From positions 451,908-515,907 of the forward strand of contig NZ_KB905371.1 in NCBI RefSeq assembly GCF_000378985.1: a stretch of 64,000 nucleotides of DNA, read 5' to 3'. Each line of letters opens with the position of its first letter. Within the stretch, counting starts at the first letter, position 1. The notes beneath the pieces were generated by a model. It saw only the letters and a program-made list of their open reading frames with translations, did not search any database and was not told the DNA's origin. The DNA is from Ensifer sp. BR816 (GTDB lineage: Bacteria > Pseudomonadota > Alphaproteobacteria > Rhizobiales > Rhizobiaceae). Of this stretch, positions 10,266-32,333 are shown piece after piece. The position numbers were made by a program, and so were the translations under genes.

Positions 10266-11030
<765 letters not shown>

Positions 11031-11142: not shown

Positions 11143-12321
11143 CTATGCGATTGGAGACCGAGCAATTGGCCGCCGTCCATTAAGGTGGGGGCTTCCACTA
11201 CTGGCGACAGCCCCCGTGAAAAAAGCCCTGAAGAACGGAACGCAGCCGGCACCAACCGCGCCGGCTTGGACGCCAAGCTGTGAGGCGGAAACGGGAGCGA
11301 TCAGCAAGCCGCGAGATGGTCCTTCGATCGGCTCCGAGAGGATCGTTTCGACGAGCCGTTTGTTAATACCGCTAGGCAAACGACCGCCGACGACAATGCG
11401 TGCCGGATCGAAAAACGCCGTTGCTAAGCGCACAGCTTGCCGAAGCTGCGCGCCAGCCCGGCTGACCCATTCGCTTACGAGGGAACCAGCCGCCGCCGGC
11501 ATTGCATTCATGTGCTCGACGTCTCGAAGATAAAAGCCAGCGGCCTTCAGCGTCGCGAGAAGGTCCTGCCCAGAGGGACGCGGCTGATCGTAGGGGTACA
11601 GTACGCCCGGCAAGCAGGCATTGCCATTGGCACCCCGATATGGCTTCCCGTAGATCACAGCTCCGCCGCCAACCCCATGCCCGATGTGAATGAAGAACAG
11701 CGGATCATCGCCGGCGTTTTTATTTGCAAACACGTATTCGCCGAGGGCCGCTGCCGTGCCGTCGTTCTCGACATGGCAGGCAATCTCAAAGGCACCACGG
11801 AACGCTTCAATGGCCCTGCCCTCTTCAAAGGCAGGAAAGAAAGGGTGCGCCTTCAAGAGGTTTGAGGCGGTGCCGAAATTTCCCGGGACGGAAACGCCAA
11901 GGCCAACGAGGTCGCTTTTCACGATGGACAACGCAGCGAGCATTTCATTTACGGCAGCCTCAGCCGCTTCCGCCACTTCCTCCGGCTTGCCAGTCGTTAC
12001 TTCCACGGTTCTCGTTGCCAGGATCGACCCGCCAAGGTCGATGATGACCACTTCCATGCGCGCGATCGAGAAGGTGACGCCGGCTGCGAAGAAGCGATTG
12101 GCCTGCAGTCGCAATAGCCGGCGGGGTTGACCTTGCGCGCCGCTTCGATCGGGCTCATCCGAAAGCAGGCCAAGATCCAGCAACCCCCCGATGAGGCGCG
12201 TCACGGAGGCACCTGTCATCCCGGACAACTGCGCGAGGTCGACTCGCGCCACTCCCCTGTTCTTGAATATTAGTTCGACGAGTCGTCGTTCGTTGAGGGA
12301 AAGGTCCGGCAGTGCTGGCAT
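11143..12321 (-). CDS. ROK-family transcriptional repressor, copy A
   Basis: A 392-residue NagC/XylR-type ROK protein. It has an N-terminal winged helix (LNERRLVELIFKNRGVARVD then LSGMTGASVTRLIGGL, about residues 8-50) and a sugar-kinase-like ROK fold. The latter has GVSVPGNFG, the ENDGTAAALGE segment (near 195) and the GHGVGGGAVI signature (near 225). ROK repressors release DNA on binding a sugar or sugar phosphate. A long upstream extension in frame is ignored because the ATG at 12321 matches the start of the second copy. A 22-bp palindrome lies 57 bases upstream. Its partner transporter gene on the other side is only a scar. Nearly the same protein is encoded at 18767-19939. Confidence 0.9.
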   Translation of the reverse strand: MPALPDLSLNERRLVELIFKNRGVARVDLAQLSGMTGASVTRLIGGLLDLGLLSDEPDRSGAQGQPRRLLRLQANRFFAAGVTFSIARMEVVIIDLGGSILATRTVEVTTGKPEEVAEAAEAAVNEMLAALSIVKSDLVGLGVSVPGNFGTASNLLKAHPFFPAFEEGRAIEAFRGAFEIACHVENDGTAAALGEYVFANKNAGDDPLFFIHIGHGVGGGAVIYGKPYRGANGNACLPGVLYPYDQPRPSGQDLLATLKAAGFYLRDVEHMNAMPAAAGSLVSEWVSRAGAQLRQAVRLATAFFDPARIVVGGRLPSGINKRLVETILSEPIEGPSRGLLIAPVSASQLGVQAGAVGAGCVPFFRAFFTGAVASSGSPHLNGRRPIARSPIA

Positions 12322-12377
12322 GATGAAGGCAGTCCTAGCGAATCGATCCCCGGGTTCGGAAAAGTTATTGCAAAGAA

Positions 12378-12399
12378 AATTAACTTGCGCAATGTAATT
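12378..12399. promoter_or_regulatory. ROK operator palindrome, copy A
   Basis: AATTA-ac-TTGCGCAA-tg-TAATT, a 22-bp near-perfect palindrome upstream of the ROK gene. The same palindrome occurs at 19982, 23482 and 32240, each time between ROK and transporter sequence or its remains. It is the best candidate for the operator that ROK proteins bind, giving autoregulation and control of the divergent transporter. Confidence 0.7.
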
Positions 12400-12412
12400 A
12401 ACGCGGGCGGCA

Positions 12413-12556
12413 GGGACGAACCGAAAGGCAAATACGGCATCGGCGCACGTGTTCGGCACCTGCCTGCAATCCTCGTGCGCCTTCCACGGAGGTCTCCAAC
12501 CAAGGCTGGGATTTTCTGCGCAAGCTATGATCGCCAGCAATGACGCGGATTCGCAT
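12413..12556 (+). pseudogene. Scar of the ABC-transporter binding-protein gene (copy A)
   Basis: Short stretches align with the intact binding-protein gene at 23559-24560. GACGAACCGAAAGGCAAATA matches codons for DEYQGKY, CCTCGTGCGCCTTCC matches ILVRFL, and GGCTGGGATTTTCTGCGCAA with GACGCGGATTC matches GWEFLSK and NDADS. Deletions lie between these blocks. The gene lost its 5' half and its 3' end. It lies divergent from ROK copy A, the position of the transporter in the intact module. Confidence 0.75.
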
Positions 12557-13122
12557 CCTCCATTCTCGATAAGAGAAAGCTGGATTTTCAAGTGACGGAA
12601 ATGGCTATTAATCAAGCCGCAAAGAGACAGCACCGACATTGACCGCCGCATGCATCGAGTCCGGGAAACCCCGGAGATTCAAAGTGCCACCTGAAATCAG
12701 GAGATTTCGACTCTGTTCTCCGGGCCAAATTCCGCGACACCGCGGAATACACGGACTACACAAAATCTATGCGGACATTCCCGAGCATGAACTATTCGTC
12801 TTCACTTGTCGTCCGCACGATAAGTGCAGAGAGATACTTGCCTCACCCGGCCGTCGATACCGACCGGTCCCTCATTGCATTCTGTCACGGCCGGCTTCAA
12901 TTCCATGCCATTGCCTGCGCGGCGGGGTTGGTGCAGGCGGTTTCGCTTGAGCACCCGCCAAGGTCGCGGCCGGGGGTGGTCTGCGATCGAGTATACCTGG
13001 CCTCGAATTCGGCCCTTCCAGGACAAGGTTGAGCTTGCGCCTTTCTCGCCATGTCGGGTCAGCACCATGACACATTACGTCAGCGGCGCATCTGCCAAGC
13101 GACGAAGAGGCCCCCAGGCTCG
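12557..13122. other. 566-bp gap with no supported gene
   Basis: No ORF here has protein-like features. The left part is probably the end of the decayed module copy A; the rest is unassigned. It separates this scar from the 3' end of the S9 peptidase. Confidence 0.5.
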
Positions 13123-15465
13123 TCACCCGCTCGATTTATCCTTCGGCAGCTCGACCGGGATAGCGTTCCAGTTGGGCGGGTTTTGTCCGAGAATGTTGCG
13201 AACGAGGAAGTCCAGGAGTTTGCGGTTGGTGAACTTGCCGGGTGCACCATGATCCGCACCGGGCACATAGACCATTTCGAAGTCTTTTCCCGCCTTGATG
13301 AGCCGATCGGCAAGCTGGAAGGTGGAGGACGGATCGACATTGTGGTCCATTTCGCCGACGATGAGCATCAGCTTGCCCTGCAGCCGATAGGCATTGTCTA
13401 TGTCGGAGGATTGCGAATATTCGATGCCGACCGGCCAACCCATCCATTGCTCGTTCCACCAGATCTTGTCCATGCGGTTGTCGTAGCAACCGCTGTTGGC
13501 AACCGCAACCTTGTAGAATTCGGGGTGGAAGAGCAGCGCGCCCACCGCATTCTGGCCACCGGCGGACCCGCCGAAAATGCCGACATTGGAGATGTCGTAC
13601 CAGGGAAACTGAGCGGCTGCCGCCTTGTGCCAGAGAATGCGATCGGGGAAGCCCGCGTCCTTCAGGTTTTTCCAGGCGACATCATGAAAGGCGCGCGAGC
13701 GGTTGTTAGTGCCCATGCCGTCGATCTGCGCGACAATGAAACCTAATTGCGTGAGCAGCTCGGTCTCGGTCGAGAATGATTTCGGGACGAACGAGCCCTG
13801 CGGCCCGGCATAGATGTGCTCCACCACCGGGTATCTCTTCTTCGGATCGAAGTTGGCTGGCAGATGAATGATGCCCCAGATATCGGTCTTGCCGTCCCGT
13901 CCCTTGGCAGGAAAGCTGAGCGGCGGTCGCCAGCCCGCGGCGGTGAGCTCGGAAATTTCGGCGCTCTCGACATCCATCCGCTTGACGTTGTCTTTGGCAC
14001 GGTAGAGCACCATGCGCGGCGGCAGATCGACGCGAGACCACAAATCGACATAGTAGCGGCCGCCGGGCGAAAACACGATCTGGTGGTTGGCCGGCTCGGG
14101 CGTGAGCTCGGTCAGCCCCGTTCCGTCGAAGCCGATGCGGTAGGCGTGGACGAAATACGGATCCTCCTCCGGGTTCATACCGCTTGCCTCGAACCAGATC
14201 TGACGCTGGATCGGATCGACGTAGTCGACCGCCCGCACCACCCAATCACCATGGGTGATTTGGTTTTCGAGCGCACCGCTCCGGCCATTGAACAGATACA
14301 GATGCTCGTGCCCGTCGCGTTCCGACGCCCAGATGATCTCCTTGCCGTCATCGACATCATAACGGTAGGTTTTCCCGGTCCACTTCTGGTCCCTAGTGAG
14401 CGATATGTAATCGACGAAGGTCCTACTAGCCTCATCGATCAGCGCGCGCGTGCGGCCGGTGGCGGCATCCACCTCCACCAGACGATAGAGCTGATGGCCG
14501 CGCTGGTTGTATTCGAAGGTGAAGCCGCGCGCGTCCTTCCACCACTTGATGGGCGATATCTGGAACGGGTTCGAAAACAGGGCGTTGTCAATCGCGATCT
14601 CGCGCCGGCCGGCAATGTCGAACAGCACCGGCTGGGAAAGTGGAAGCACGTCACCCGCCTTGAGATAGGCGATGGAAGGAAATTTAGGTTGAAGCTGGTC
14701 CGTTGGCGCCGATTCGAGGTAGTGCACCTCCCGCTTGTAGCCGGGCCGGATGCGGTAGGCCGCAAGGTGGCGAGAGTCGGGAGACCAGCGGAGCGTGGAG
14801 AAGGCATAGTAGTTGCCTTCCGAACCGTCCCAGCTCAGCGGGACATCCTGCGAGCCGTCCTTGTTGCGCAGGAAGACATTGTAGTTCTTGATATAGGCGC
14901 TCCATTTTCCGTCCGGCGACACGCTCCACTTGCGGGAATCATTCGTCACGGGCGGCGTGTAGTCGTGGCTTTCCTTCTGATAACGCGGGTCGTCCGGCTT
15001 AATTTCGGCGGCCGTGCAGGCATCGCTCGTTAGGCCGCAACTCCACAGCCTATTCCCGCTGCGGAAGTTAAGCCTGTCACCATTGTCGGTCAGTTCGAAG
15101 CGGTCGAATGGAAGGTTTTCAGGATTAAAACTCTGGTGGGTCTCCTTGTTCAGCGCCGCCGCGAGGCGGACCTGATCGAAGGCCGGTCGCTTCTCGCCCG
15201 TGGCGGCATTGACCAGCAAGAACTCGTGCTCGCCGTGACTGCTCCGTCGGTAGGCGAAGGTGTCCTCGCTAAGCCAAAAAGGCACTTCGGGCAGATCGAC
15301 AGAGAGCCGGCGATAGCGGTCGTTGATCGTGAGCGCCCGCTCGAAGTCGGCGAGCGCCAGCGGCGAATCCCCAGGGGCCGGACCGTTCGGCAGCCCCTGC
15401 GCGCCCGCCGCTCCCGCCTCAACGAACAGCGCGAGCGTTAAAGCCCCGATCTTCAACATGGCCAT
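13123..15465 (-). CDS. Secreted S9 (dipeptidyl peptidase IV-type) serine peptidase
   Basis: A 780-residue protein with a signal peptide (about 1-22, LTLALFVEAGAAGAQG). An N-terminal beta-propeller of the DPP IV type (about 60-480) is followed by an alpha/beta-hydrolase S9 catalytic domain. The nucleophile elbow is FGGSAGG (Ser near 631), the acid is Asp in GEMDHN (near 704) and the histidine is in GADHGAPG (near 738). Classical members have GWSYGG, so the elbow is a variant. It probably acts in the periplasm on short or proline-containing peptides. It stands alone between two ROK module copies and so looks like separate accessory cargo. Confidence 0.85.
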   Translation of the reverse strand: MAMLKIGALTLALFVEAGAAGAQGLPNGPAPGDSPLALADFERALTINDRYRRLSVDLPEVPFWLSEDTFAYRRSSHGEHEFLLVNAATGEKRPAFDQVRLAAALNKETHQSFNPENLPFDRFELTDNGDRLNFRSGNRLWSCGLTSDACTAAEIKPDDPRYQKESHDYTPPVTNDSRKWSVSPDGKWSAYIKNYNVFLRNKDGSQDVPLSWDGSEGNYYAFSTLRWSPDSRHLAAYRIRPGYKREVHYLESAPTDQLQPKFPSIAYLKAGDVLPLSQPVLFDIAGRREIAIDNALFSNPFQISPIKWWKDARGFTFEYNQRGHQLYRLVEVDAATGRTRALIDEASRTFVDYISLTRDQKWTGKTYRYDVDDGKEIIWASERDGHEHLYLFNGRSGALENQITHGDWVVRAVDYVDPIQRQIWFEASGMNPEEDPYFVHAYRIGFDGTGLTELTPEPANHQIVFSPGGRYYVDLWSRVDLPPRMVLYRAKDNVKRMDVESAEISELTAAGWRPPLSFPAKGRDGKTDIWGIIHLPANFDPKKRYPVVEHIYAGPQGSFVPKSFSTETELLTQLGFIVAQIDGMGTNNRSRAFHDVAWKNLKDAGFPDRILWHKAAAAQFPWYDISNVGIFGGSAGGQNAVGALLFHPEFYKVAVANSGCYDNRMDKIWWNEQWMGWPVGIEYSQSSDIDNAYRLQGKLMLIVGEMDHNVDPSSTFQLADRLIKAGKDFEMVYVPGADHGAPGKFTNRKLLDFLVRNILGQNPPNWNAIPVELPKDKSSG

Positions 15466-16605
15466 TTGCCCCCTTCAGTTTTATTAGTCACCGCGTCCTT
15501 GGATCTGCACTGCTCAAAAGGCCGTGCAGCAGCGTTCAGGTCCTGAGGAGCCCGCAACTGCCTTGTTACGCAATCGCCGCGTCCGAACCTGATGACTTGA
15601 CGAGTCTCCGGACACCCAGGAACCGACGAGGTTGAATCGATGGGAAAGTTGGAATGGACTTCCCGCCCAAGCAGCAGCTTGGCCCAGCATTGTCATCGAC
15701 GAACCTCTGATCGGCCTCACAATGATCAATGGAGAAGATTGAGCTATCACTTTGAGCCGGCCTAATTAACACGGGGATTCTGGAGACCCCAGCATTAATC
15801 GTGCCAAAGAAGACACTGGTGGAAATACGCGCGGCTGGTCGAAACTGTTATGTCGCGTGTCTAACATCGTCAGACATCGGACATGCTCTACCTCAATACA
15901 ACGCCGCGTCAGGTGGACTGCCATTCAGGAACGGATGAACGAACGAAACCCTTCCGACTGGCGCCAGCTCCGCAAGGTCGTCAAACAGGCTGTGAACCAG
16001 ATGCCCCTGTGGGAGCCCACCATGCATTGAAGGGCGAAGCCTAGAAGGTTGGCTTTTCATCTGACCGGGCGCCTGCCCGGACGCATTAAGTGCAGGCTGA
16101 TCGCCGGATGCACGCCGGCCACCGCTGCTGCGATCGCGGCTTCCCGCGTCGATTTCTTGTCGTTGGTTGGATCACCCATAGCGCGCCGACGCTCGAGCCT
16201 CGATTTCGCGTGAAAAAAAGGGGCCAGCGGAAGACCGCGGCCAAAATTAACCTCCAGAGGGGAACAGCCGATCCGGCGGCTGCCGCAAGAGCGGTCCCGA
16301 ATGCCAGCTTTTTGAAGATTTGGAAGGTTCATTGCAATCCCCTTTTGTTGCAGGCGGATCATGCTCAAAAAGCGGCCAATCAATCAAAACGATAGTGCGC
16401 ATGGCAATAATGCGTGACATTCATATCCTTCGCGCCGAATTTATGACCTTCGCCATGAGGGATGGCTTAGCCGATCGTCCGGCCCGGGCGACGTGTAAAA
16501 TCGATAGTTCGGGCGAATTGAACGTCGCGACCTGACTGCTTCGCTCAGCACGCACCGGACACCGGAACCAGGCCATTGCCTCGCAGCAAGACGCCCAGCA
16601 CGGCG
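15466..16605. other. 1.1-kb gap without a supported gene
   Basis: No ORF is convincing. At 16336-16230 on the minus strand, ATGAACCTTCCAAATCTTCA followed by a one-base shift in an A run would encode KLAFGTALAAAAGSAVP. This looks like the signal peptide of a lost secreted protein, but nothing recognisable follows. The rest shows no promoter, repeat or RNA that I can support. Confidence 0.4.
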
Positions 16606-17078
16606 TTAGGTCGGTACGCCGAGCCCCACCTTGATCCGGTCCATGGCGACGAAGGTGCGGAAGCGTTTGACATTGTTGTTGCCGAAGAACAGGCGGCGGG
16701 TGCTTCGTAGTCGGCCATCGACGGCACGACGACGACGAGGACGAAGTCGGCTTCGCCGGTCACATAATAGCATTGCTGAATTTCGGGGGCGGCGGCAAAT
16801 TCGCGTTTGGCCTGCTCGATCTGTTCCGCCGTCTCGCTGATCACTTCGACCTCGACGAAGATGGTGATTGCCTGGCCGACGGCGGCGGGATCGACAACGG
16901 CGACGTTGGCGCGGATGACGCCATCCTCCGTCATGCGCTTGATGCGCCGCTGCACCGCAGGTGCCGAGAGACTGACAGCCGCGCCGATCGTCCTTTGCGG
17001 CGTCGTGTTGTCACGCTGCAGGATCTCCAGGATCTTGCGGTCGAAAACGTCGAGTTGGGGCGGTTTGGAGGGCGGCAC
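16606..17078 (-). pseudogene. Lrp/AsnC-family regulator with 4-base deletion
   Basis: Residues from the GTG at 17078 (VPPSKPPQLDVFDRKILEIL) form the Lrp helix-turn-helix (to TEDGVIRANVAVVD). The RAM ligand domain follows (FVEVEVISETAEQIEQ, CYYVTGEADFVLVVVVPSM). After MADYEA the frame is lost. The natural end, FFGNNNVKRFRTFVAMDRIKVGLGVPT, is found one frame over, and inserting four bases (CTGA) would restore a 158-residue protein of normal length. The shifted product would keep the DNA-binding domain but replace the last 25 residues. Another GTG at 17090 is possible. Divergent from the ammonia-lyase gene, which it presumably controlled. Confidence 0.8.
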
Positions 17079-17181
17079 GGACGACCCCACGAAACAAACT
17101 TGCAAAACAGAGGTCAAATATCGGCGCCATTTTTGCGAAGTTTGCAATATGTTTTCATCCAGACAACAAGCGAGGCCGTTC

Positions 17182-18381
17182 ATGTTAATTCTCAACAGCA
17201 ATCCCGACTATCGGTCGCCACTCGAACCTGACGATGCCGATATGCTCGGGCTCACTGCGGCCGAGGGCGTTGAACTTCACTTGCGCTTCCGCGACCATCA
17301 TGCCGAGACACCGCTGATTTCGTTGCCCGCGCTCGCCGCCCAAACAGGTATTGCTGCAATACATTTGAAAGATGAGGGCAAGCGATTGGGACTCGGCAGC
17401 TTCAAGGCGCTGGGCGGCGCTTACGCCGTCGTCCGCCTTGTTCTCGAGGAAGCGCAAAGACGGCTCAGGCGGCCGGTCGACATGGCCGAGTTGCGTTCGC
17501 CTGACGTCCGCAGGGTCGCCGAGACAATGACCTTCGCCTGCGCGACCGACGGCAATCATGGTCGCTCCGTCGCCCAGGGCGCCAGTCTCGTCGGCGCGCG
17601 GGCGGCGATCTTTGTCCACGCCGGCGTCAGCGACGAGCGCGTCGCGGCGATCGCACGCTTTGGCGCCGAGATGATCCGCGTCGCCGGGAGCTATGACGAC
17701 TCCGTCAAGGAGGCGGCCCGTGTGGCGCGCGCCCGCGACTGGACCATCGTGTCCGACACGTCCTGGCCGGGTTACGAGCGCATTCCCGGACTGGTGATGC
17801 AAGGCTACACGGCGCTGGTGCGCGAGGCGCTAAGGCAGATGCCGGCGCCGCCGACCCATGTGTTCATCCAGTCCGGCGTTGGCGGTATCGCCGCCGCAGT
17901 TGCCGGCCATCTGGCCATCGCATTCGGTGATCGGCGGCCGGTCTTCACCGTAGTCGACCCTGCCCGCGCCGCCTGCCTGTTCGAGACCGCGCGGGCCGGC
18001 CATCCCGTCGCCGTGCCGCATGGCGAACCGACCGTTATGGCCATGCTCGAATGTTACCAGCCATCGCTTGTCGCCTGGCGCATCCTGTCACGCGTTGCCG
18101 ATGCCTTCATGACCGTCGACGAGGACGATGCGATGGCGGTGATGCGGCGACTTGCCAATCCGGTCGGCGGCGATCCGGCTGTCGTTGCCGGAGAAAGTGG
18201 TGGTGTCGGGCTTGCCGGGCTCCTAAAGGCTGTCGCCGATCCTGAAATGAGATCGGCTCTTTCCATCAATGAGGAGTCCCGCATCTTCCTGGTCAACACG
18301 GAGGGTGCGACTGATCCCTGCAAATATCAGGAAATCGTCGGGCGTTCGCCTGATGAGGTCACATCGCGAGGTGCAGAGTGA
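17182..18381 (+). CDS. dpaL: Diaminopropionate ammonia-lyase (PLP enzyme)
   Basis: A 399-residue fold-type II PLP enzyme of the DpaL/YgeX family, whose E. coli member has 398 residues. It splits 2,3-diaminopropionate into pyruvate and ammonia. The PLP lysine lies in GLGSFKALGGAYA (near residue 75), the phosphate-binding glycines in QSGVGGIAAAVAGHL, and the substrate part in FACATDGNHGRSVA. The ATG at 17182 starts MLILNSNPDYRSPL and ignores a longer upstream extension that crosses the Lrp promoter. It overlaps the start of a truncated amidohydrolase gene (ATGAGC, 4 bases), so the two were an amino-acid degradation operon. Confidence 0.9.
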   Translation: MLILNSNPDYRSPLEPDDADMLGLTAAEGVELHLRFRDHHAETPLISLPALAAQTGIAAIHLKDEGKRLGLGSFKALGGAYAVVRLVLEEAQRRLRRPVDMAELRSPDVRRVAETMTFACATDGNHGRSVAQGASLVGARAAIFVHAGVSDERVAAIARFGAEMIRVAGSYDDSVKEAARVARARDWTIVSDTSWPGYERIPGLVMQGYTALVREALRQMPAPPTHVFIQSGVGGIAAAVAGHLAIAFGDRRPVFTVVDPARAACLFETARAGHPVAVPHGEPTVMAMLECYQPSLVAWRILSRVADAFMTVDEDDAMAVMRRLANPVGGDPAVVAGESGGVGLAGLLKAVADPEMRSALSINEESRIFLVNTEGATDPCKYQEIVGRSPDEVTSRGAE

Positions 18382-18587
18382 GCAACCATTCCATCGACTC
18401 CACCCGGCTGCTTGGCCGGCTTGGCGAACTTGGCGCCATCGGTCGTGACAGCGACAGCCGACTGATCCGTCTTGCCTCGTCCGATACCGACAAGCTCGGG
18501 CGGGACAAGTTCGTGTCCTGGATCGAAGCGGCCGGTCTCGAGGTCGCGGTCGACCGGATCGGACGCGTGGCGACGCGTAGACCGTGA
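18378..18587 (+). pseudogene. N-terminal fragment of an amidase/hydantoinase-type Zn hydrolase (M20)
   Basis: The first about 62 codons read like the start of an N-carbamoyl-amino-acid hydrolase: RLLGRLGELGAIGRDSDSRL and then DKLGRDKFVSWIEAAGLEVA. The family is about 400 residues, but here the frame stops at 18587 after VATRRP and no metal-binding region follows. The break lies about 180 bases before the end of ROK copy B, so arrival of that module, or a later deletion, removed the rest. The gene overlaps dpaL and must have been translated with it. Confidence 0.7.
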
Positions 18588-18766
18588 AGCCGATCCCGCT
18601 TCCCATCGACCTTGCAATTTTGTGGAGGTCGACTGCGGCGGTTGTGCGTGGCTGGCCACGCCGTGCGACAGTTGGGCGTGGTTCGCGCTCGGCGTCACAA
18701 GAAGCAGGCCTTGGCGACGTCCTGCCTCAACCGCTTCCTCCCCGCCGGGTTTATGTCTGCACCGAA

Positions 18767-19939: not shown

Positions 19940-19981
19940 GTCACGGTTCCTGGCAAATCGTTTAGAAGCTATTGCAAATAA

Positions 19982-20003
19982 ACTTAACTTGCGCAATGTA
20001 ATT
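19982..20003. promoter_or_regulatory. ROK operator palindrome, copy B
   Basis: Same palindrome as copy A with one change in the left arm (ACTTA instead of AATTA) and an intact TTGCGCAA core and right arm TAATT. The next 30 bases (AAAGTGACAC, then CCCACGTAAGAGG) are nearly identical to those at 23504-23531, the 5' untranslated region of the working transporter. Confidence 0.7.
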
Positions 20004-20055
20004 AAAGTGACACAGAGCCCACGTAAGAGGCATTCTCAAAATCGGGAGGGTTTCG

Positions 20056-23151: not shown

Positions 23152-23168
23152 TCTGATTTGATTCTGAA

Positions 23169-23198: not shown

Positions 23199-23217
23199 CT
23201 GCCGAGCATGATCTCCG

Positions 23218-23430
23218 TTTTGGAAAAGGTGACGTCGGCTCCCAAAAAACGACTGGCCTACAGCTGCAATGGTCGTCGCGGTTGACCTGAGCCGGCACCC
23301 GCGATCACCAGCCTGTTCGCCTGTTCGGCCGGGCAGCTCTGTCAGGTCGACATGCCACCCCTCCCCTGTTGTTGAATACAACTCGAACAGCCGTCGTTTG
23401 TTGAGGGAAAGCGCCGGCAGTGCCGGCGTG
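23218..23430 (-). pseudogene. ROK repressor, remnant of the local copy (copy C)
   Basis: On the minus strand PALPALSLNKRRLFELYSTTGE with VDLTELPGRTG matches the start of ROK copies A and B (PALPELSLNERRLVELIFKNRG, VDLAQLSGMTG). It then joins directly to a stretch equivalent to the segment around residues 70-90 (LLQLQASRFFAAGVTF) through a deletion. The remaining 300 codons are absent. The transporter operon next to it therefore has no local repressor. The change of the start codon (ATG to GTG-like context) and several substitutions show old decay. Confidence 0.8.
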
Positions 23431-23481
23431 CGCAAACCTGGAAAATGATCCAAGGTTTCTGAAGAAAGCGGTTGCAAAGAA

Positions 23482-23503
23482 AATTAACTTGCGCAATGTA
23501 ATT
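23482..23503. promoter_or_regulatory. ROK operator palindrome in front of the working transporter operon
   Basis: AATTA-ac-TTGCGCAA-tg-TAATT, identical to copy A, 56 bases upstream of the binding-protein ATG. As the only copy in front of an intact transporter, it is the site where ROK copies A and B could act in trans. Confidence 0.75.
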
Positions 23504-23558
23504 AAAGTGACACGGAACCCACGTAAGAGGGGCGTGTCCTCAAACCTGGGAGAAACTC

Positions 23559-24560: not shown

Positions 24561-24596
24561 TCGGCGGCAATTCCCGAAATGGATTGGAAGTCTGCC

Positions 24597-25595
24597 ATGG
24601 CCGACAACGTTTTGTCTCTCAAAAATCTCGACGTCGGTTTCCCTGGCATGACCATCGTCCATGATCTGAACCTCGACGTTGCCGACGGCGCTTTTGTCTC
24701 GCTGCTCGGCCCGTCGGGGAGCGGCAAATCCACGGTGCTGCGCACCGTTGCCGGGTTACTCCCGGCCTTGGGGGGAAGGATCGTCCTTGAAGGGGGCGAT
24801 ATCACCACCCTTCCCCCTGAGCGTCGCAATGTCGGTATCGTCTTCCAGAACTACGCCCTGTTTCCAACGATGACGGCGTTCGAAAACATCGCCTTTGCGC
24901 TCCGCGTCGCAAAGAAACCGCAGGCGGAGATCGAAAGGCGCGTGCACGAGGTCGCCGCGATGGCCGGGATCACCGATCAGTTGGACAAGAAGCCGGCAAA
25001 CATGTCGGGCGGACAGCAACAGCGCGTGGCAATCGCCCGCGCGCTGGTGACCGGATCGCGCGTGCTGCTCTTCGACGAGCCCTTGTCGAACCTCGACGCC
25101 AAGGTCCGCGCCTCGATGCGCCAGGAGATCAAGCGCCTGCAGACGGAGCTCGGCTTTACCGCCATCTTCGTCACGCATGACCAGGAGGACGCGCTGACCA
25201 TGTCGGACGTCATTGTGGTGCTCAATCACGGCAGGATCGAGCAGATCGGCGACGGCCGCACCCTCTACCGCAAGCCGGCAACGCCATTCATCTGCGAGTT
25301 CATCGGCGTCTCCAATGAGCTGGCTCCCCCATTGGCGGCTCGCCTGCTTGGCCGCGATATCAAGGGCCGCAGCTTCGTGCGCCTTGAAGATGTGGTGCTC
25401 GGGGCCGCCGAAGGTATTCCGGCGCGGGTGAACCACGTCGAATTCCTCGGGGCATACAGCCGCATCGATCTCGATGTCGAGGGCCACGCCCTTTCGGCAA
25501 TGCTGATCGGCGATCCACTCCCGGAGCCCGGAAGCTCCGTCTCGCTCGCTGTCCGCCCCGGTGCTGCGCATATATTCGCCGAGGCGACACCATGA
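24597..25595 (+). CDS. ABC transporter ATP-binding protein
   Basis: A 332-residue nucleotide-binding subunit. It shows Walker A LLGPSGSGKST (near 38-48), Q-loop VFQNYALFPTMT, signature MSGGQQQRVAIARAL (near 135), Walker B VLLFDEPLSNLD and H-loop FVTHDQEDA. A C-terminal TOBE-like part (about 240-332) follows, as in carbohydrate and polyamine importers. An ATG six codons upstream exists, but the second has GGAAG at good spacing and is chosen. It energises the double permease that follows; the genes overlap by 4 bases (ATGA). Confidence 0.93.
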   Translation: MADNVLSLKNLDVGFPGMTIVHDLNLDVADGAFVSLLGPSGSGKSTVLRTVAGLLPALGGRIVLEGGDITTLPPERRNVGIVFQNYALFPTMTAFENIAFALRVAKKPQAEIERRVHEVAAMAGITDQLDKKPANMSGGQQQRVAIARALVTGSRVLLFDEPLSNLDAKVRASMRQEIKRLQTELGFTAIFVTHDQEDALTMSDVIVVLNHGRIEQIGDGRTLYRKPATPFICEFIGVSNELAPPLAARLLGRDIKGRSFVRLEDVVLGAAEGIPARVNHVEFLGAYSRIDLDVEGHALSAMLIGDPLPEPGSSVSLAVRPGAAHIFAEATP

Positions 25596-27301
25596 CCCGC
25601 ACTGCTGGCTTCGACCGCCTTCTCTACTGGTTCGGCTTGATCGTCATTGCCTGGGCCGTGCTGACTTTCCTTCTCGTTCCAATCAGTGCTGCCCTGCACG
25701 CCGCGCTGTTCAGGCATGGCGGGCTGGAAATCGTCGATGCCGTTGCGGAACTGGTGAGCTCTCGCCGCGTCCGCGCCGCGCTCTGGAACACCGCGTGGAT
25801 GACGGCGGCCACGATCGTCACCGTCACGATCGTCGGGATGTTTCAGGTGGCTGTGCTCGAATATTTCCGCGTCCGCGGGAGTGGCTTTCTAAAAGTTGCC
25901 TTTTCCACGCCACTGGTCTTTGGCGGCGTCGTTGCGGCCGCCGGCTACAACTTCACCTATGGCCCGGGCAGCGCCATCACCGCGGCGCTGACGGCGCTTT
26001 TCCCATCGATACCGCGCGACTGGTTCATTGGCTGGTTCGGCGTCCTCTTTGCCCACACCTTCCTGATGACCAGCTTCCACTTCCTGTTTTTGCGCGCCGC
26101 CATGCGCCGCGTCGACTATTCGACTATCGAGGCGGCGCGCAGCATGGGTGCATCGGAACTGACGATCCTGCGGCGCGTCGTCCTGCCGGTCATCATGCCG
26201 ACCTTGCTTGCCGTCACCCTGCTGACGCTCCACACGGTCGTCGGCTCTTTCGCAGCGCCCCAGGTCTTGGGCGGGCGGGACTTCCACATGCTGAGCCAGA
26301 TGGTCCTGACGCTGAACAGTCTGCGCAGGCCCGACATGGCAGCGCTTCTGGCGCTGCTGATGGGCATGGTTCTGATGGGGCTGATCCTGCTATCGCAGTA
26401 TTTCGAGGCCAAAGGCGCCTATACCGCCGGCGCGAAAACCACGACCCGCATCCAGCTGCGGCAAATCCGAAATCCGCTTCTGCGGACTATGGTGCACGCG
26501 CTTGCCTATTTGCTGGCCGCAATCTACCTGGTGCCGGTCGCGCTCATCGTGCTGTTCTCCTTCGCTCCCGCTTCAAGCATCGGCATTGAGATGCTGCCCT
26601 CCACACTCACCCTGACCAACTATGCCCGCGTGCTCGGCGGCGGCACGGCTTTCGTCCCGTTCTTCAATTCGATGCTCATGGGCTCGGCCGCGGTCGTTGT
26701 CGGTCTCGCCATCACGCTCTTTGCCGTGCCGATCATGGTGCGCAAGCGAAACTGGCTGACGCAGGCGCTCAGCATCAGCTTCTTCCTGCCCTGGATCATT
26801 CCCTCCATCCTGCTGGCGGTGGGGCTGATTGTTGCTTTCGACGCGCCCAATCCGCTTGTCGGCAATGCTGTCCTGCTTGGCAGCTATTGGCTTTTGCCGA
26901 TCGGCTACGTGATCTTCAGCCTGCCGCTCATGGTCCGCTTCATGCGTTCGGCCTTTATCGGCATCGATCCGGCCTTTGAAGAAGCGGCCCGCGCAATGGG
27001 CGCCTCCGGCCCCTATCGCTTCCGCCGGGTCGTCCTGCCGCTCGTGGCGCCGACCGCCATCCTGGTCGCCGGCATGAAGTTCAACACGCTGATGGCCGAA
27101 TATCCGCTCTCGGCCTTTCTTTACAACGTCAACAACAGGCCGCTGCCGATCGCCATCGTCGAGGGCGCGGTATCGGCCGACCCCGACCAGGCCGCCATCA
27201 GCCTCGTCTACGTGACGCTGATCATGGCCTTCTCGCTCACCGTCATCCTCATCGCCGAGCGCCTCAGCCTCGGCCGCACCCCGGAAACAAGCAACCTCTG
27301 A
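25592..27301 (+). CDS. ABC transporter permease, two fused membrane domains
   Basis: A 569-residue integral membrane protein with about 12 hydrophobic segments. It contains two copies of the binding-protein-dependent permease domain, each with an EAA loop: EAARSMGASELTILRRVVLP (near 180-200) and EEAARAMGASGPYRFRRVVL (near 465-485). Such fused permeases are usual in the FbpB/AfuB and phosphonate-type importers and serve as both halves of the channel. It overlaps the ATPase gene by 4 bases and is followed 13 bases later by the isomerase gene. Confidence 0.92.
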   Translation: MTRTAGFDRLLYWFGLIVIAWAVLTFLLVPISAALHAALFRHGGLEIVDAVAELVSSRRVRAALWNTAWMTAATIVTVTIVGMFQVAVLEYFRVRGSGFLKVAFSTPLVFGGVVAAAGYNFTYGPGSAITAALTALFPSIPRDWFIGWFGVLFAHTFLMTSFHFLFLRAAMRRVDYSTIEAARSMGASELTILRRVVLPVIMPTLLAVTLLTLHTVVGSFAAPQVLGGRDFHMLSQMVLTLNSLRRPDMAALLALLMGMVLMGLILLSQYFEAKGAYTAGAKTTTRIQLRQIRNPLLRTMVHALAYLLAAIYLVPVALIVLFSFAPASSIGIEMLPSTLTLTNYARVLGGGTAFVPFFNSMLMGSAAVVVGLAITLFAVPIMVRKRNWLTQALSISFFLPWIIPSILLAVGLIVAFDAPNPLVGNAVLLGSYWLLPIGYVIFSLPLMVRFMRSAFIGIDPAFEEAARAMGASGPYRFRRVVLPLVAPTAILVAGMKFNTLMAEYPLSAFLYNVNNRPLPIAIVEGAVSADPDQAAISLVYVTLIMAFSLTVILIAERLSLGRTPETSNL

Positions 27302-27314
27302 ATGGACACCTGAA

Positions 27315-28238
27315 ATGGACACTTGCATCACCGTCTGGCACTGGCCCACGCATGAACGCTGGTACGACGAGGGCATCCGCCAGTCGCTCGAGCTGATCCG
27401 TGAAGCCGGCTTCACGCATATCAACTGGAACCCCGATTCCGGCAGCTCCTACTTGCTTGCAGACGCCGAAATCGAGTTCACCCGCCGCATCGTCGCCGAG
27501 GCCGGCCTCAAAACCCACTCGGTTCACGCCAGCAACGGCGTCAACCCGGTCAGCGAGCTCGCCCATGCTGGGCCTGCGCCGTTCGCCATGGAAACGCGCA
27601 AGAACATCCTTTCCCCGCACGAATGGCAGCGTCAGAGCGGCGTCGAGCTCTTGAAGAACCGCGTTGATCTGGCTGCCGCTTTGGGCGCCCCGAATGTCGT
27701 GCTGCACGTCGACATTACCGACGACACGTTCCGCACATCCGAGACCGAGCAGTCGTTCTTTGAGCCGCTTTACCGCTCGCTTGACGACGTTCAAGCCTAT
27801 TGCCTCGAACGCAAGGTGCAGATCGCCGTCGAAACGTTGGTCAAGGCAAGTGCCTGGAACTATCATGCACTCTATGCCCGGCTGTTTGAGCGCTATGGCG
27901 CCGACTTCATCGGGCTCTGCTATGACAGCGGCCATTGGGAACTGATCGAGCCGGGCGAGGTATCCGTGCTGGAGCTTTATGGCAACCGGCTGCTGGCGAC
28001 GCACATTCACGACAATTTCGGCGCGAAGGACGACCATCTGCTGCCGTTCGACGGCAGGCTCGACTGGAACGCCATCACCAAAGCCATCGCCGCGACTGAT
28101 TATGTCACGCCGCTGAACTTCGAGACGCCGATGGACCGCTACGTCCTGGCGGAGGCTTCCTTCTATCAGCGGGCACACGAGATCGCTGTACGGCTTGAAG
28201 AGATGATCGCAGCAGGGCGCGACAAGGCAGCAAATTGA
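27315..28238 (+). CDS. Sugar phosphate isomerase/epimerase-type TIM-barrel protein
   Basis: A 307-residue protein of the xylose-isomerase-like TIM barrel superfamily (AP endonuclease 2 fold). It has metal-site residues in HSVHASNGVN, VVLHVDITD, IAVETLV, CYDSGHWE and THIHDNFG. These residues bind divalent metal in epimerases and isomerases that act on ketoses, inositols or similar polyols. The product cannot be fixed from sequence. Its place between the transporter and the phosphatase-like gene says it works on the imported compound. It overlaps the next gene by 4 bases. Confidence 0.85.
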   Translation: MDTCITVWHWPTHERWYDEGIRQSLELIREAGFTHINWNPDSGSSYLLADAEIEFTRRIVAEAGLKTHSVHASNGVNPVSELAHAGPAPFAMETRKNILSPHEWQRQSGVELLKNRVDLAAALGAPNVVLHVDITDDTFRTSETEQSFFEPLYRSLDDVQAYCLERKVQIAVETLVKASAWNYHALYARLFERYGADFIGLCYDSGHWELIEPGEVSVLELYGNRLLATHIHDNFGAKDDHLLPFDGRLDWNAITKAIAATDYVTPLNFETPMDRYVLAEASFYQRAHEIAVRLEEMIAAGRDKAAN

Positions 28239-29050
28239 ATCGCGATCTCACCACCCGACTGGATTTGCTTCAGAACGTCACTGCGAAGGTCGGGGCCTTC
28301 GCTCTACTGCGCTTTCGCAATCTTGCGCAGATCGCCATCGAGACCAAAGGCGAGGCTGATTACGTCAGCGCCGTCGATCGCGATGCCGAAAGCCTCGCCC
28401 GCAGGCTCATTCACGCCCAGTTCCCCGCCGACGCGATCGTCGGCGAGGAACAGCACGGCAAAGCCGAGGGCGACTACTGGTTGATTGATCCCATCGATGG
28501 AACCGCGAATTTCCTGTCGGGCATCCCGTTCTGGGCGGTCTCGATCGCCTATGTTCGCGACAATGAGCCGGTCTTCGGCGCCATTGCGCTACCGGCATTG
28601 GCCGCCTTGTTCTGGGCCTCGGTAGACGGCCCTTTACATGCGACGGGATCGGTTTCGCCGGTCGTCGGCACGCAGCCGATCGCCTTTGGCGTGGGCCGGA
28701 ACCGGACATGGCCTATCGCCCACCGGCTCGAAGTCGAAGCGACGCTCGAAGCGCAGGATTTCCATATCGTCTGCTTGGGGAGCTGTGCCGCAGCGCTTGC
28801 GATGGTCGCGGCGCGCCGGCTCGCCGGCTATGTCGAGCACGGCACCAATCTTTGGGATTGCGCTGCCGGACACGTCTTATGCCGGGCGGCGAATATGCCG
28901 TCGACCATTCTCCAAGAGGCAAATGGGAAAGTGGCCGTCATTGCCGCTGCCCAGCATCTGCCAGAAATTGCCAATATCTTGCCGGCATGTACAGGGAACG
29001 CACTGCTTCGGCACTTGCTGAGCGCGCAGTTAGGTCGCGCAGAAGTGTGA
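28235..29050 (+). CDS. Inositol monophosphatase-family phosphatase
   Basis: A 271-residue Mg2+-dependent phosphatase of the IMPase/FBPase superfamily. Metal-site motifs are complete: GEEQHG (Glu71-72), IDPIDGTANF (Asp85, Asp88) and NLWDCAAG (near 208). Likely reaction: removal of phosphate from an inositol or sugar phosphate. The start is TTG, overlapping the stop of the isomerase gene (TTGA); no other start occurs before the conserved part, so translational coupling is likely. Last gene of the transporter operon. It fits a pathway in which a phosphorylated polyol is imported, dephosphorylated and isomerised. Confidence 0.9.
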   Translation: MNRDLTTRLDLLQNVTAKVGAFALLRFRNLAQIAIETKGEADYVSAVDRDAESLARRLIHAQFPADAIVGEEQHGKAEGDYWLIDPIDGTANFLSGIPFWAVSIAYVRDNEPVFGAIALPALAALFWASVDGPLHATGSVSPVVGTQPIAFGVGRNRTWPIAHRLEVEATLEAQDFHIVCLGSCAAALAMVAARRLAGYVEHGTNLWDCAAGHVLCRAANMPSTILQEANGKVAVIAAAQHLPEIANILPACTGNALLRHLLSAQLGRAEV

Positions 29051-29242
29051 TCTTTCGGGTCCACAAATCGTCATAACCAAACTGTTCGGTGCCGTAGCCT
29101 TGCTGGCATTTTTATCTGCAGACAATCTCCTTAGGGGGCTTGCCCTGCTCGCTGCCGTAAGGACGAGCTTGGATGAATGTCGATTTGAACTCGGCCTCGA
29201 AATTTTTCTTTCGCCGTACCTTGAGGCGAGGCCAAAGACGCC

Positions 29243-30331
29243 CTAGCGATGGATATTGATGCTGATCCCCTGTTGAGCGACAGAGCTCACGTTCGCCGGC
29301 GGATTGCCAGGACTAGCCGTGCCGCAGGGGGTTTGAATCTCCCCGAAAAGATACTGGCCGCTGTTGCAGGGCAGCATGTTTACGTCGAGAAAATGACTCC
29401 CCCTCAAAGAGTTCTGGTAAGCTATAACTTCTTTCATCGACAGTGGCGCTGAGAATATCGTCACTCCCTCAAAGCCGGGCAATGCCTCTATCGGCTCGAT
29501 GGTCGGCGGGGTTTGCCCGGGCACACCGGCTGCGCCAATAAGCCACGACCCAACCGATCCGAAAATGACGGACTTGGGCCGGTCGGTTGGCGTGCCAGCG
29601 TCGAAAGGAAAGTGCGGGAAACCACCATCAAGCACGGCCTCATCCCACTGGTAAGCGGTAAACGCCAGTAAATAGGTGTAGGGCGCGAAGCGGTCCATGC
29701 GAACCTTACCGTCTGGTGTGAAGGTAAAGTATATCCACTCGGTTCCGGAGAAGTCGCCTGTTGGTCCTAGGAGATTCATATCCCACGGCTTCTGCCAATA
29801 AGCGGTTTGCGCCGTATTGCCTTGAAGCGAGCTTTTGGCAACAGACCACTTTTGCCCCCTTAAACTGGGCTTCGCTCCCAAAGCGAATACCAAGTATGCG
29901 TCGTTGGAATTAGAACTCAACAGGGACAGCGTGCTACCCCCATTGGGAACGGTATTATCACGGGTCTTCTCGACCAAAAGGACTGTGAACCCCGTTGCCG
30001 GGCTGATCGACGCGATCTCCCTGGTCTCGATGGACGAGTTTGGCGGAAAGTTAAACGATGTCTTATTGGTATAGAAGTCAAATGCCTGCTTTGTATTATG
30101 AGGCACAGGATAATCTGCCCCGGTAGCAGAGTCGTGTATATACAGCTTTGGATAGTCGCCAAAAACAGGCACGACCTTCGGAGTGAGTGTTTGAGACACC
30201 TTTACCGACGCGCTTTTGAAGCAGTCAGCCTGGTCGGCGCATGAACCAGCCTGGCTTGCGCCAGCAAGAAGCAATGCCGTTATAAAGAATGGTAGAGAGA
30301 TCGTCTTTCCAGTTTTCATCGGCAGATCCAC
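29243..30331 (-). CDS. Secreted protein of unknown function
   Basis: A 362-residue protein with a signal peptide (ISLPFFITALLLAGASQAGS, cleavage near residue 29; a second ATG four codons on is possible). Two cysteine pairs (CADQADC near 31-37 and two more cysteines near the C-terminus, in MLPCNSGQ and TPCGTA) suggest disulfides. The middle part (STLSLLSSNSNDAYLVFALG, then EWIYFTFTPDGKVRMDRFAP) resembles a LamG/concanavalin-type beta sandwich, without clear family match. It starts 21 bases after the glycerophosphodiesterase gene in the same direction, so the two probably form an operon and act outside the cell together. Base composition is lower in GC than its neighbours. Confidence 0.7.
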   Translation of the reverse strand: MDLPMKTGKTISLPFFITALLLAGASQAGSCADQADCFKSASVKVSQTLTPKVVPVFGDYPKLYIHDSATGADYPVPHNTKQAFDFYTNKTSFNFPPNSSIETREIASISPATGFTVLLVEKTRDNTVPNGGSTLSLLSSNSNDAYLVFALGAKPSLRGQKWSVAKSSLQGNTAQTAYWQKPWDMNLLGPTGDFSGTEWIYFTFTPDGKVRMDRFAPYTYLLAFTAYQWDEAVLDGGFPHFPFDAGTPTDRPKSVIFGSVGSWLIGAAGVPGQTPPTIEPIEALPGFEGVTIFSAPLSMKEVIAYQNSLRGSHFLDVNMLPCNSGQYLFGEIQTPCGTASPGNPPANVSSVAQQGISINIHR

Positions 30332-30351
30332 TTTGAAGCGCAGGTCTTACT

Positions 30352-31485
30352 TCAGCGACTCAGTTCGCTGGTGTTGCGGCGCCCTAACTCGCGCAGCATG
30401 TCGCCAACCACGTCGGGCCAGTCAGTGGTGATCAGATTGGTACGATTGACGATTGCCATTTCCGGATCTCCGCGTAAGTCCGGCACGATGCCTCCTGAAA
30501 CGGTCGAAGCGGGATCGGTGTTGTGCGCGAAGCAGCATTTTCCAGCGCTGTTGGCGACGCCCTCCGGATAGTAGTTACTTTCATGATAGGTGGCGAAGCC
30601 CTGCTTTTGATCGACGTAGTCGAAATACGCTTGAAGACCGTCACCTTTGTAAAATTGGTTCATTTCAAACTGAACGGGGAATGGAGCCACATTCCACTGA
30701 TCGTAGATCGTGTCCTGATGAGGATCCCAGTTGGAATCCTTCACGTTCTTGTCGTCCGGGTTTTCAACTATGATCAGCCCGCCGATGACAGTGGGATCGT
30801 AGGTGGTCCGGTTAAGAAAAGTGCCAAGATCCGCCGCATCCTTGGCCTTCAGCTTGAATACGACAGCCTTGCCGAGCTGCGGATTTTTCTTGGCCGCGAG
30901 AATATCTAGGCAACGTTGCGTGAGTTCAATGGGATCAGTGGGATCCTGGTCGTCCACCGCCCCTTTCACATCGACGATCATCACATATCCATGCCCATCA
31001 TTGGCGACATATTGGGCGAGCAGATCAAGCGCTGCTGAGAATGTCAGGAACTTCGCCACGCGCCCTTGCGAGTCCTTAAACACACGTCCATGGCGGTCGC
31101 GTAGATCGGCTTGCTGTATTTGCGAATAGTCCTGATCGTACAGCAGGCCGCTTCCGGTGGATTCCCGCTCGATCCTGTAGTCGTGAGATAGAATGACTTC
31201 CTTGTCCGCTGTAAAGCGGACATCGACCTCCACGGTCTCGATCTGTGAATTCCAGGCATCTTGCAAAGCGTAGGCTGAATTCTCGGGATAGACCTCCCAA
31301 GATCCACGATGCGCAGATAGCAGAACCAAGCCCGTGTCGGGTTTTGGCAATCTAAACATGTTTCTTGTGATGGCGCTCACGAGATATGGCGAAGGCTTCA
31401 CCGGAAGCACCGCCTCTGCCCGGGCATGGGATAAGAAACACAGAGCAAAAATTGAGGTTGAGATAAGTGACGCACGCATGTCCAA
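30352..31485 (-). CDS. Secreted glycerophosphodiester phosphodiesterase family protein
   Basis: A 377-residue protein with a signal peptide (1-23, LCFLSHARA). A GDPD TIM barrel follows: LLSAHRGSWEVYPENSAYAL holds catalytic His59 and Arg60 with Glu68, VEVDVRFTADKEVILSHD holds metal ligands Glu86 and Asp88 and second histidine His101, and VMIVDVKG is the next strand. Members cleave glycerophosphodiesters to glycerol 3-phosphate and an alcohol; some have other targets such as sphingomyelin-like lipids. Secretion suggests action on lipid-derived substrates outside the inner membrane. The product could be food for the transporter encoded upstream, but that link is inference. Its GC content is below that of the plasmid core. 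Confidence 0.85.
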   Translation of the reverse strand: MDMRASLISTSIFALCFLSHARAEAVLPVKPSPYLVSAITRNMFRLPKPDTGLVLLSAHRGSWEVYPENSAYALQDAWNSQIETVEVDVRFTADKEVILSHDYRIERESTGSGLLYDQDYSQIQQADLRDRHGRVFKDSQGRVAKFLTFSAALDLLAQYVANDGHGYVMIVDVKGAVDDQDPTDPIELTQRCLDILAAKKNPQLGKAVVFKLKAKDAADLGTFLNRTTYDPTVIGGLIIVENPDDKNVKDSNWDPHQDTIYDQWNVAPFPVQFEMNQFYKGDGLQAYFDYVDQKQGFATYHESNYYPEGVANSAGKCCFAHNTDPASTVSGGIVPDLRGDPEMAIVNRTNLITTDWPDVVGDMLRELGRRNTSELSR

Positions 31486-32107
31486 TTCCTAGTTAATATG
31501 TAACGCGCGAAGCGCAACGGGCAAGCAAATATCCTGCGATCAGAGCTTAAGGTATGTTTTGAACAGTATAGGATGGGGGGCAATCCCGCTGTTTTCATCC
31601 ACTCCATTCGGACATCATTCAAAGAGACGCCACGATGGTCTCCACTTACGACGACCTTTCAAAACCTATCTCTCTGAACACGCGTCCCAGCCCGGATTTA
31701 CTGCGCTCCCACACGATCATAACGCCTCCCCCATACGGCCTCACCTCACTCCCCCTATCCGGCGAACATGCCTGTCATGCCGCCGGACGAAGCGCTCTCA
31801 TCACGAACGCCCCGCGAGCCGATTGGAAATCTGCCACTGGTGTCCGCCGCCAACGAAATCATCGAAGCAAGTTGCATGCCGTATTGGCGCACGTTTTGCG
31901 CTGCACCACTTGTCGGTGCCGCGGTCGGGCCTGGGGACCGTTGGTGTGGTGTCGGACTTCCAACATTCTTGTCCGCTTTCGGACAAGAGAGAGCTTGCGG
32001 CAGACACGCACTGGCAGAACCTTGAGCAGGAAACGCCGCGACCCGATCCGAACTCCATTCTGCGCTGCGCTTTGTCAGCCCAACGTCTGACCCTGAGACT
32101 GGCTTCT
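31486..32107. other. 622-bp gap, non-coding debris
   Basis: Several overlapping ORFs are open here, but none has a recognisable motif, ribosome site or protein-like pattern. It adjoins the module scar at 32108-32262 and probably contains rearranged pieces of it. Confidence 0.4.
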
Positions 32108-32235
32108 GTTGGCCTGCAGTTGCAAGAGGTGACGTGGGTTGACCTTGCGCGCGGCTTCGATCCGCCCTTCCGAAAGCAGTGCACGCATGGCGCAGTCCGC
32201 AATAAGCTATGATGGAATCCAAAAAGCCATTGCAG
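32108..32235 (-). pseudogene. ROK repressor, scar of a fourth copy (copy D)
   Basis: TGGCCTGCAGTTGCAAGAGG, followed by GGTTGACCTTGCGCGC and GCTTCGATCCGCCCTTCCGA, matches the stretch of ROK copies A and B that encodes PDRSGAQGQPRRLLQLQA. About 45 bases on, the sequence jumps by deletion to the promoter side (AAGCCATTGCAGTCAAAATT). Only this short piece and the operator remain of the module. Confidence 0.7.
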
Positions 32236-32239
32236 TCAA

Positions 32240-32261
32240 AATTAATTTGCGCAATGTAATT
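32240..32261. promoter_or_regulatory. ROK operator palindrome, copy D
   Basis: AATTA-at-TTGCGCAA-tg-TAATT, with both arms and the core fully kept although the repressor and transporter genes next to it are gone. It lies 72 bases upstream of the small LuxR-type ORF at 32334, which might therefore have been captured by the ROK regulon. Confidence 0.65.
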
Positions 32262-32333
32262 TAAGCTCCGTAATCGACGCCGAGGGTCCTCTAGTGCGAC
32301 GTTGTCGGGCGCCGCGATCTAGGGAACTACGCA

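Follow-up and report, generated by a model that had tools for sequence, protein, structure and literature searches.

The 64,000-nucleotide window of Ensifer sp. BR816 analysed here (bases 451908-515907 of a 606-kb replicon, in a genome of 6.95 Mb) contains four copies, A to D, of a module in which a ROK-family repressor gene and the binding-protein gene of an ABC transporter diverge from a palindrome that is a predicted operator. Copies A and B each have an intact repressor gene and only the remains of a binding-protein gene, copy C has a full transporter operon and only scraps of a repressor gene, and D is a small remnant; all four carry the palindrome. We think it fairly probable that this decay is complementary, such that the repressors of A and B and the transporter of C make up one working system in which A and/or B control C in trans. 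Because C is without a repressor while those of A and B are intact and constrained, A and/or B probably repress C through the common operator.

The scheme that we propose begins with several old copies of a ROK-regulated uptake module, from whose remains one working system could still be assembled. A and B would have kept repressor and operator and lost the transporter; C would have kept its operator and whole transporter operon while its own repressor was destroyed. ROK A and/or ROK B would bind the operator of C in trans and repress the uptake operon until freed by a ligand, which might be a phosphorylated sugar or a product formed by the linked phosphodiesterase; they would also autoregulate through their own operators. 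D would be the operator of an old relic, handed down together with the phosphodiesterase block.

Gene content of the four copies and their common predicted operator

When the whole window was compared with itself by BLASTN, A and B were found to be alike over 1244 columns (11158-12401 against 18776-20005, 81.0% identity), a region that comprises the whole repressor gene and the operator. B and C match over 482 columns (71.6%, E 4e-50), covering the repressor start, the operator and the start of the binding-protein gene, A and C over 169 columns (76.9%), and A and D over 72 (84.7%, E 3e-13). With matches spanning 72 to 1244 columns, a similarity confined to the palindrome was rejected. An earlier sequence-only reading had described four junctions of ROK gene, operator and binding-protein gene, and these stand, with likeness extending beyond the palindrome at all four places: A at 11.1-12.5, B at 18.8-20.3, C at 23.2-32.0 and D at 32.1-32.3 kb. 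Gene content (Table 1) was established by tblastn with the proteins of Rhizobium gallicum R602, and decay is plainly in progress in all four copies. A and B hold an intact repressor and a broken binding-protein gene only, just as had been read from the letters; the scrap in A consists of two pieces (residues 146-174 and 180-192), each with a modest E of 0.001, that begin right after the operator. The full operon and the ROK scraps attributed to C were also found, but the copy extends beyond the operon to genes for an apparently exported protein and a glycerophosphodiester phosphodiesterase (GDPD) at 29243-31485, which had been overlooked. The firm evidence for a ROK scrap in D is the DNA match, the protein match having an E of 0.15.

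When up to 3 mismatches are allowed, the 23-bp palindrome occurs four times in the window and never in 100 shuffles. The 20-bp operator core has four in the whole 6.95-Mb genome at the same tolerance, exactly those of A to D, and all lie on the same strand. In each of the 15 outside modules examined the gap between the ROK and binding-protein genes contains the site with no more than 2 mismatches, and this conservation leads us to infer that the palindrome is an operator. Nine of 33 genomes of the genus have any such site; four have one, four have two and that of the window has four, the most in any, in agreement with the earlier description of four copies that each decayed in a different way. 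Ten of the 12 plasmid records searched have the operator, NGR234 and CCBAU 05631 twice.

ROK A and ROK B are 84% identical as proteins and both exceed the Pfam ROK cut-off of 22.9 bits (64.4 and 74.6). Both appear to have an N-terminal DNA-binding region besides the ROK domain; the sequence match of ROK B to the solved ROK regulators 7rhe and 1z05 starts at residue 9 and that to Mlc at residue 16, and the NagC model covers both repressors from residue 12-13. Neither reaches the NCBIfam equivalog cut-off for NagC (86 and 94 bits against 650) or for Mlc (42 and 54 against 530). The only close homologues that they have in the genome are each other, the next best being 30% identical, and they differ at just 5 of their first 68 residues, where the DNA-binding region is expected. 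Both repressors are under purifying selection, like their intact relatives: the ratio of non-synonymous to synonymous divergence (dN/dS) is 0.107-0.177 in the nine pairs involving A or B, against 0.110-0.170 in six pairs without them. Private codon changes replace the amino acid in 9 of 32 cases in A and 6 of 36 in B, and in 10-31% in eight other rows of the alignment. The binding protein of copy C shows the same constraint as the repressors, with a dN/dS of 0.10-0.13.

Table 1. Features of the accessory stretch and its left flank (positions in the window)
Feature	Position	Strand	Basis
traR1, LuxR-type quorum-sensing activator, left flank	10266..10997	-	Pfam Autoind_bind, GerE; 86% DNA match to S. 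mexicanum
Whole accessory stretch, 21.95 kb	11118..33067	.	Flanks match S. mexicanum, 85-86%; 1.6 kb there instead
Copy A intact ROK-family repressor gene, 392 amino acids	11143..12321	-	Pfam ROK 64.4 bits; dN/dS 0.12-0.18
Copy A predicted operator	12378..12400	.	Palindrome match
Copy A binding-protein scrap, about residues 146-192	12412..12527	+	tblastn, two collinear pieces
Copy B intact ROK-family repressor gene, 390 amino acids	18767..19939	-	Pfam ROK 74.6 bits; dN/dS 0.11-0.13
Copy B predicted operator	19982..20004	.	Palindrome match
Copy B broken binding-protein gene, residues 8-106	20067..20327	+	tblastn E 1e-8
AraC-type regulator	20367..21473	+	Pfam HTH_18
Outer-membrane porin	22126..23151	+	Pfam Porin_2 373 bits
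Copy C ROK scraps, residues 2-37 and 54-93	23204..23426	-	tblastn E 2e-9
Copy C predicted operator	23482..23504	.	Palindrome match; 54 bp before binding-protein start
Copy C substrate-binding protein, SBP_bac_8/6 kind	23559..24560	+	Pfam; PhnS2 101 bits, under cut-off; PDB sequence matches
Copy C ABC ATPase	24579..25595	+	Pfam ABC_tran, TOBE_2
Copy C fused ABC permease	25592..27301	+	Pfam BPD_transp_1, 2 stretches
Copy C xylose-isomerase-like TIM barrel (sugar isomerase/epimerase)	27315..28238	+	Pfam AP_endonuc_2
Copy C inositol-monophosphatase-family phosphatase	28235..29050	+	Pfam Inositol_P
Conserved, apparently exported protein, no family assigned, partner of GDPD gene	29243..30331	-	75-87% identical in 7 other plasmids
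GDPD	30352..31485	-	Pfam GDPD 51.5 bits
Copy D ROK scrap, about residues 58-84	32081..32162	-	BLASTN to A 84.7%, E 3e-13; tblastn E 0.15
Copy D predicted operator	32240..32262	.	Counterpart of relic operators in NGR234, IC4062
62-amino-acid open reading frame (ORF) downstream of D	32334..32522	+	81% protein identity in NGR234, annotated LuxR family there

The transporter operon and the case for control in trans

The binding protein of copy C matches SBP_bac_8, 6, 1 and 11 in Pfam, and its relatives are of the iron, phosphonate and sugar-phosphate types. It scores 101 bits with the PhnS2 model (cut-off 392.75) and 69 with PhnS (cut-off 395.3). Among its lower-scoring relatives in the PDB are 6wce, which is P5P-binding, 4r6y, which is phosphonate-binding, and 4r72-4r75, which we take to be AfuA entries. 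AfuA is described as a carrier of sugar phosphates that had earlier been predicted to bind iron (PMC4546632). The importers AfuABC (hexose phosphates) and those for P5P and 2-aminoethylphosphonate thus resemble the transporter of C as distant binding-protein relatives by sequence, and differ in that iron-type proteins score better and in that the module here adds an isomerase, a phosphatase and a link to GDPD. The isomerase found no match in a PDB sequence search. The presence of a phosphatase, an isomerase, a linked GDPD gene and a binding protein whose relatives include PhnS-like and sugar-phosphate-type ones suggests that the module imports a phosphorylated sugar or a phosphodiester product.

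The gene for the apparently exported protein stands beside the GDPD gene in all eight plasmids aligned, the window included. The protein had no Pfam, NCBIfam or PDB match (the PDB being searched with its profile), and its structure model is poor (mean predicted local distance difference test score, pLDDT, 31.1). The start of the GDPD protein is signal-peptide-like when judged by eye. In favour of the GDPD link, all 24 records listed with the GDPD pair alone as their best place also hold a ROK homologue, a count in which many records are near-identical strains and beyond which lie 83 further records.

Several points weigh against the working system that we propose. Neither repressor has a separate helix-turn-helix (HTH) match in Pfam. 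In the presumed recognition helix ROK B alone carries a proline, Pro38, against Ala in the 16 other rows, and its DNA binding may be altered. The comparison of A with R602 gives the highest dN/dS of 15 pairs (0.177), and dN/dS is an average over the whole history that says nothing on the present need for both repressors. An operon with a dead repressor may simply be constitutive. The binding protein of C falls below every NCBIfam cut-off, its best PDB sequence matches are ferric-iron binding proteins, its structure model is too poor for use (mean pLDDT 36.5), and the substrate of the module is a guess. A rival reading is a slow decay without function, in which A and B are leftovers still to be disabled and C is constitutive. 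In its favour, all four copies are visibly decaying, nine of the 32 private changes in A are replacing and ROK B has its proline in the presumed recognition helix. Two full-length repressors with a dN/dS like that of intact orthologues at a synonymous divergence (dS) above 0.4 speak against such decay, and we consider it unlikely.

Age and origin of the copies

Copies A, B and C appear to be about as old as the split of the plasmid lineages with which they were compared. By path length each is nearest to R602 and not to one of the others. The dS between ROK A and ROK B is 0.694, that of A to R602 0.414, that of B to R602 0.557 and that between R602 and Mim1e 0.498; the corresponding identities are 85.4% for A and R602, 84.4% for B and R602 and 81.1% for A and B. 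The trees take in A, B and C, D being too short for a single tree of four copies. In the tree of full-length ROK genes (17 rows, of which Mim1c is without its first 13 codons and some relatives are without their last few), A and B fall outside a clade of NGR234, CCBAU 05631, S. shofinae, MPMI2T, IC3342 and IC4062 (100/100) and have no firm place relative to R602 and to the copies of R. etli, with A joining Mim1c at 83/75. Forcing A and B into a clade costs 6.36 log-likelihood units, with a borderline p of 0.045 in the approximately unbiased (AU) test. Counts of shared states reveal no special signal for A with B, at 4 sites against 12 for A with Mim1c and 9 for B with Mim1c. In the operon tree (16 rows) the R. 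etli copies form the sister group of C, and R602 branches just outside (100/99 and 96/98); the operon has its highest identity, 90%, to R602. The sequence-only reading had named two outcomes, copies that group together and copies that group with different outside relatives; A, B and C branch around R602 in no firm order, and A and B form no supported clade.

D has a different history. In NGR234 and IC4062 the operator variant of D lies between the GDPD gene and the 62-amino-acid ORF, the same neighbours that D has, and on this comparison D is an old relic common to the S. fredii group. The ROK scrap and operator that had been described at D are there; a decayed copy private to this plasmid was rejected, since a counterpart relic sits at the same spot in NGR234 and IC4062. 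There the start of the binding-protein gene is kept and the repressor lost, whereas in the window the ROK scrap is kept and the binding-protein start lost. That start was detected by tblastn in NGR234 (E 2e-6) and by DNA alignment only in IC4062, where tblastn for it found nothing significant. The operator variant and the 62-amino-acid ORF recur in two more genomes at one and the same spacing, 509-510 bp against 93 bp in the window, and CCBAU 05631 has the variant too, in a comparison that covered the operator alone. The test for stronger conservation of the D operator than of its flank yielded a p of 0.009 with NGR234, of 0.044 with IC4062 and of 0.17 for NGR234 compared with IC4062, all of these being post hoc values without correction. 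The 62-amino-acid ORF had no Pfam match at 0.001. It is kept in NGR234 and IC4062 with a dN/dS of about 0.3-0.6, and matches to it occur in 14 of the 33 genomes searched in the genus, with identities of 50-65% in the more distant of them.

These results bear on how the copies came to be together, and comparison of the sequences does not at present tell an old local duplication from repeated acquisition. We regard it as quite possible that A, B and C arrived at different times from different rhizobial plasmids in a region that collects cargo, with D inherited in the phosphodiesterase block. In identity and in dS alike, R602 is closer to A and to B than these are to one another, and the AU test is against a clade of A and B. 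The AraC-porin tail of B is of the NGR234 type, and the GDPD pair adjoins C as in R602 and R. etli. Among the loci compared, the best relatives of neighbouring blocks also differ, being GR64 for the S9 peptidase (87%), S. chiapasense for the AraC-porin pair (80%) and R602 for the segment from C to GDPD (89-90%). R. etli Mim1 has a copy on each of two plasmids, and in one of these copies no phosphatase gene is annotated. Repeated acquisition would, however, need parallel change or conversion at one operator letter, a C that A, B and C have in common and that is present in 2 of the 15 outside operators between ROK and binding-protein genes and absent from 13; moreover, the three copies radiate from approximately one node, where the branches are weakly supported.

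It is possible instead that one resident module gave rise to A, B and C around the time of the split from the R602 and R. etli lineages and that decay followed. The common operator letter would then be inherited, and the best tree of the repressor start and operator, a short alignment of 339 columns, joins A, B and C (support 23/77). Against such a duplication stand the AU result for the full ROK gene, the firm position of C with the R. etli copies and R602 outside (100/99) when A and B are not so placed in the ROK tree, and the unlike tails of B and C.

A recent tandem duplication by recombination through the module is very improbable, despite four copies within 21 kb and operators all on the same strand, because the dS of 0.69 between A and B exceeds that of each to R602; D is shared with NGR234 and its kin, and a scan of 100-column blocks of A against B, with B/C and A/C outside it, found none above 85% identity. 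The repeated duplication within 21 kb that the earlier reading had proposed is thus not established, A, B and C each being nearest to R602, a clade of A and B being disfavoured by the borderline AU test and D being shared; nor was any evidence found for recombination through the module as the cause of the copies.

The accessory stretch, traR1 and related systems

Plasmids of S. mexicanum (10054-11117 and 33068-34997) and S. terangae (10107-11117 and 33068-34997) match the flanks of the region at 85-86% identity, with 1.6 kb between the matching parts. Copies A to D and everything between them therefore form one replaced stretch, from traR1 to HTH-traM-traR2, which looks like a single insert or replacement in the conjugation region. 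Two diverged traM/traR stretches (10036-10983 and 33746-34710, 72% identity) bracket it, and two traR-type genes are likewise present at this place in S. mexicanum and S. terangae. The right edge holds the remnant of an IS5-family (ISRsp18-like) element at 32603-33066. As in the window, an AraC gene comes after the module in NGR234, MPMI2T, S. shofinae and CCBAU 05631. The AraC-porin pair (20421-23195) stands behind the phn C-P lyase operon in S. chiapasense and behind the ROK module in NGR234, which hints that the porin serves organophosphorus compounds. The interval 12560-12973, from A towards the S9 peptidase gene, is matched at 72-76% in two further genomes of the genus, and elsewhere in the window there is a 239-bp direct repeat (56192-56430 and 58101-58338, 89.5% identity). 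For the rhizobial transfer genes rcgA/rcgR (PMC9601222), no link to the accessory stretch was found.

ROK A and traR1 lie on one strand, with 145 bp from the end of ROK A to traR1 downstream of it. A promoter and terminator scan found no terminator-like site in the gap; it gave one promoter-like and two terminator-like sites, a chance level, and both of the latter are inside ROK A. The product of traR1 scores 157.5 bits with the TraR model (cut-off 250), and the gene retains about 120 bp of its own backbone upstream DNA. That copy A was kept because transcription from its operator runs into traR1 and so placed conjugation under nutrient control is a long shot. In Ensifer sp. MPMI2T a ROK 3' fragment lies beside a traR 5' fragment (L022, 1905-2645), with a whole module elsewhere (L019); ORFs for an IS5-type transposase and a NopM-like protein were seen by eye around the fragments.

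Were such a link to traR1 true, ROK A and traR1 would be a ROK-based parallel, of separate evolutionary origin, to the agrocinopine-AccR-arc-traR circuit of Ti plasmids. Class C binding proteins generally match SBP_bac_5. On pTiC58, AccR is described as controlling both acc, by which agrocinopine is taken up, and the arc operon, of which traR is part (PMC5924552), and AccA as a class C binding protein (PMC4526662). On these accounts the two systems are alike in plasmid-borne uptake of a phosphodiester nutrient, a presumed one here, in a repressor at a divergent promoter and in a traR gene nearby (PMC5924552); they are unlike in that AccA is of class C whereas the binding protein here matches SBP_bac_8/6/1/11, in that the repressor here is of the ROK family, and in that the traR link here is a candidate. 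The xanthosan cluster of Xanthomonas (AvrBs2, XanT, XanP, XanR) is reported to place a putative ROK regulator beside a GDPD-derived protein and genes for phosphodiester uptake, and knockout of that regulator to leave lesion length without significant change (PMC12807533). As far as that account goes, it differs in having a type III effector, a TonB transporter and a 2H phosphoesterase where the window has an ABC transporter and an apparently exported GDPD; the model for AvrBs2-type GDPD synthases was not reached here (24 bits, cut-off 1000).

The closest systems are the modules of pNGR234a (468.9-478.7 kb), R602 and R. etli, which have the same divergent ROK gene, operator and binding-protein gene, with ATPase, fused permease and isomerase. 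The phosphatase is also present in the NGR234, R602 and Mim1c modules, the GDPD pair is on the same plasmid in NGR234 and R602, and NGR234 has a D-type relic. On the R. gallicum and R. etli plasmids the module lies beside nif genes. Each of these records has one whole module, whereas in the window the functions are spread over decayed copies, one of which abuts traR. No publication on this ROK/GDPD module was found among titles and the starts of abstracts, a search that left most subscription journals uncovered.

If our interpretation is right, the region gives a compact example from nature of how duplicated regulatory modules can survive through complementary loss, the repressors and their target operon standing on different decayed copies, and it would represent a nutrient system with much of an opine-like parts list. 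Should copy A also drive traR1, the spread of rhizobial plasmids could be tested directly for control by a nutrient, of the kind that opines exert over Ti plasmids.

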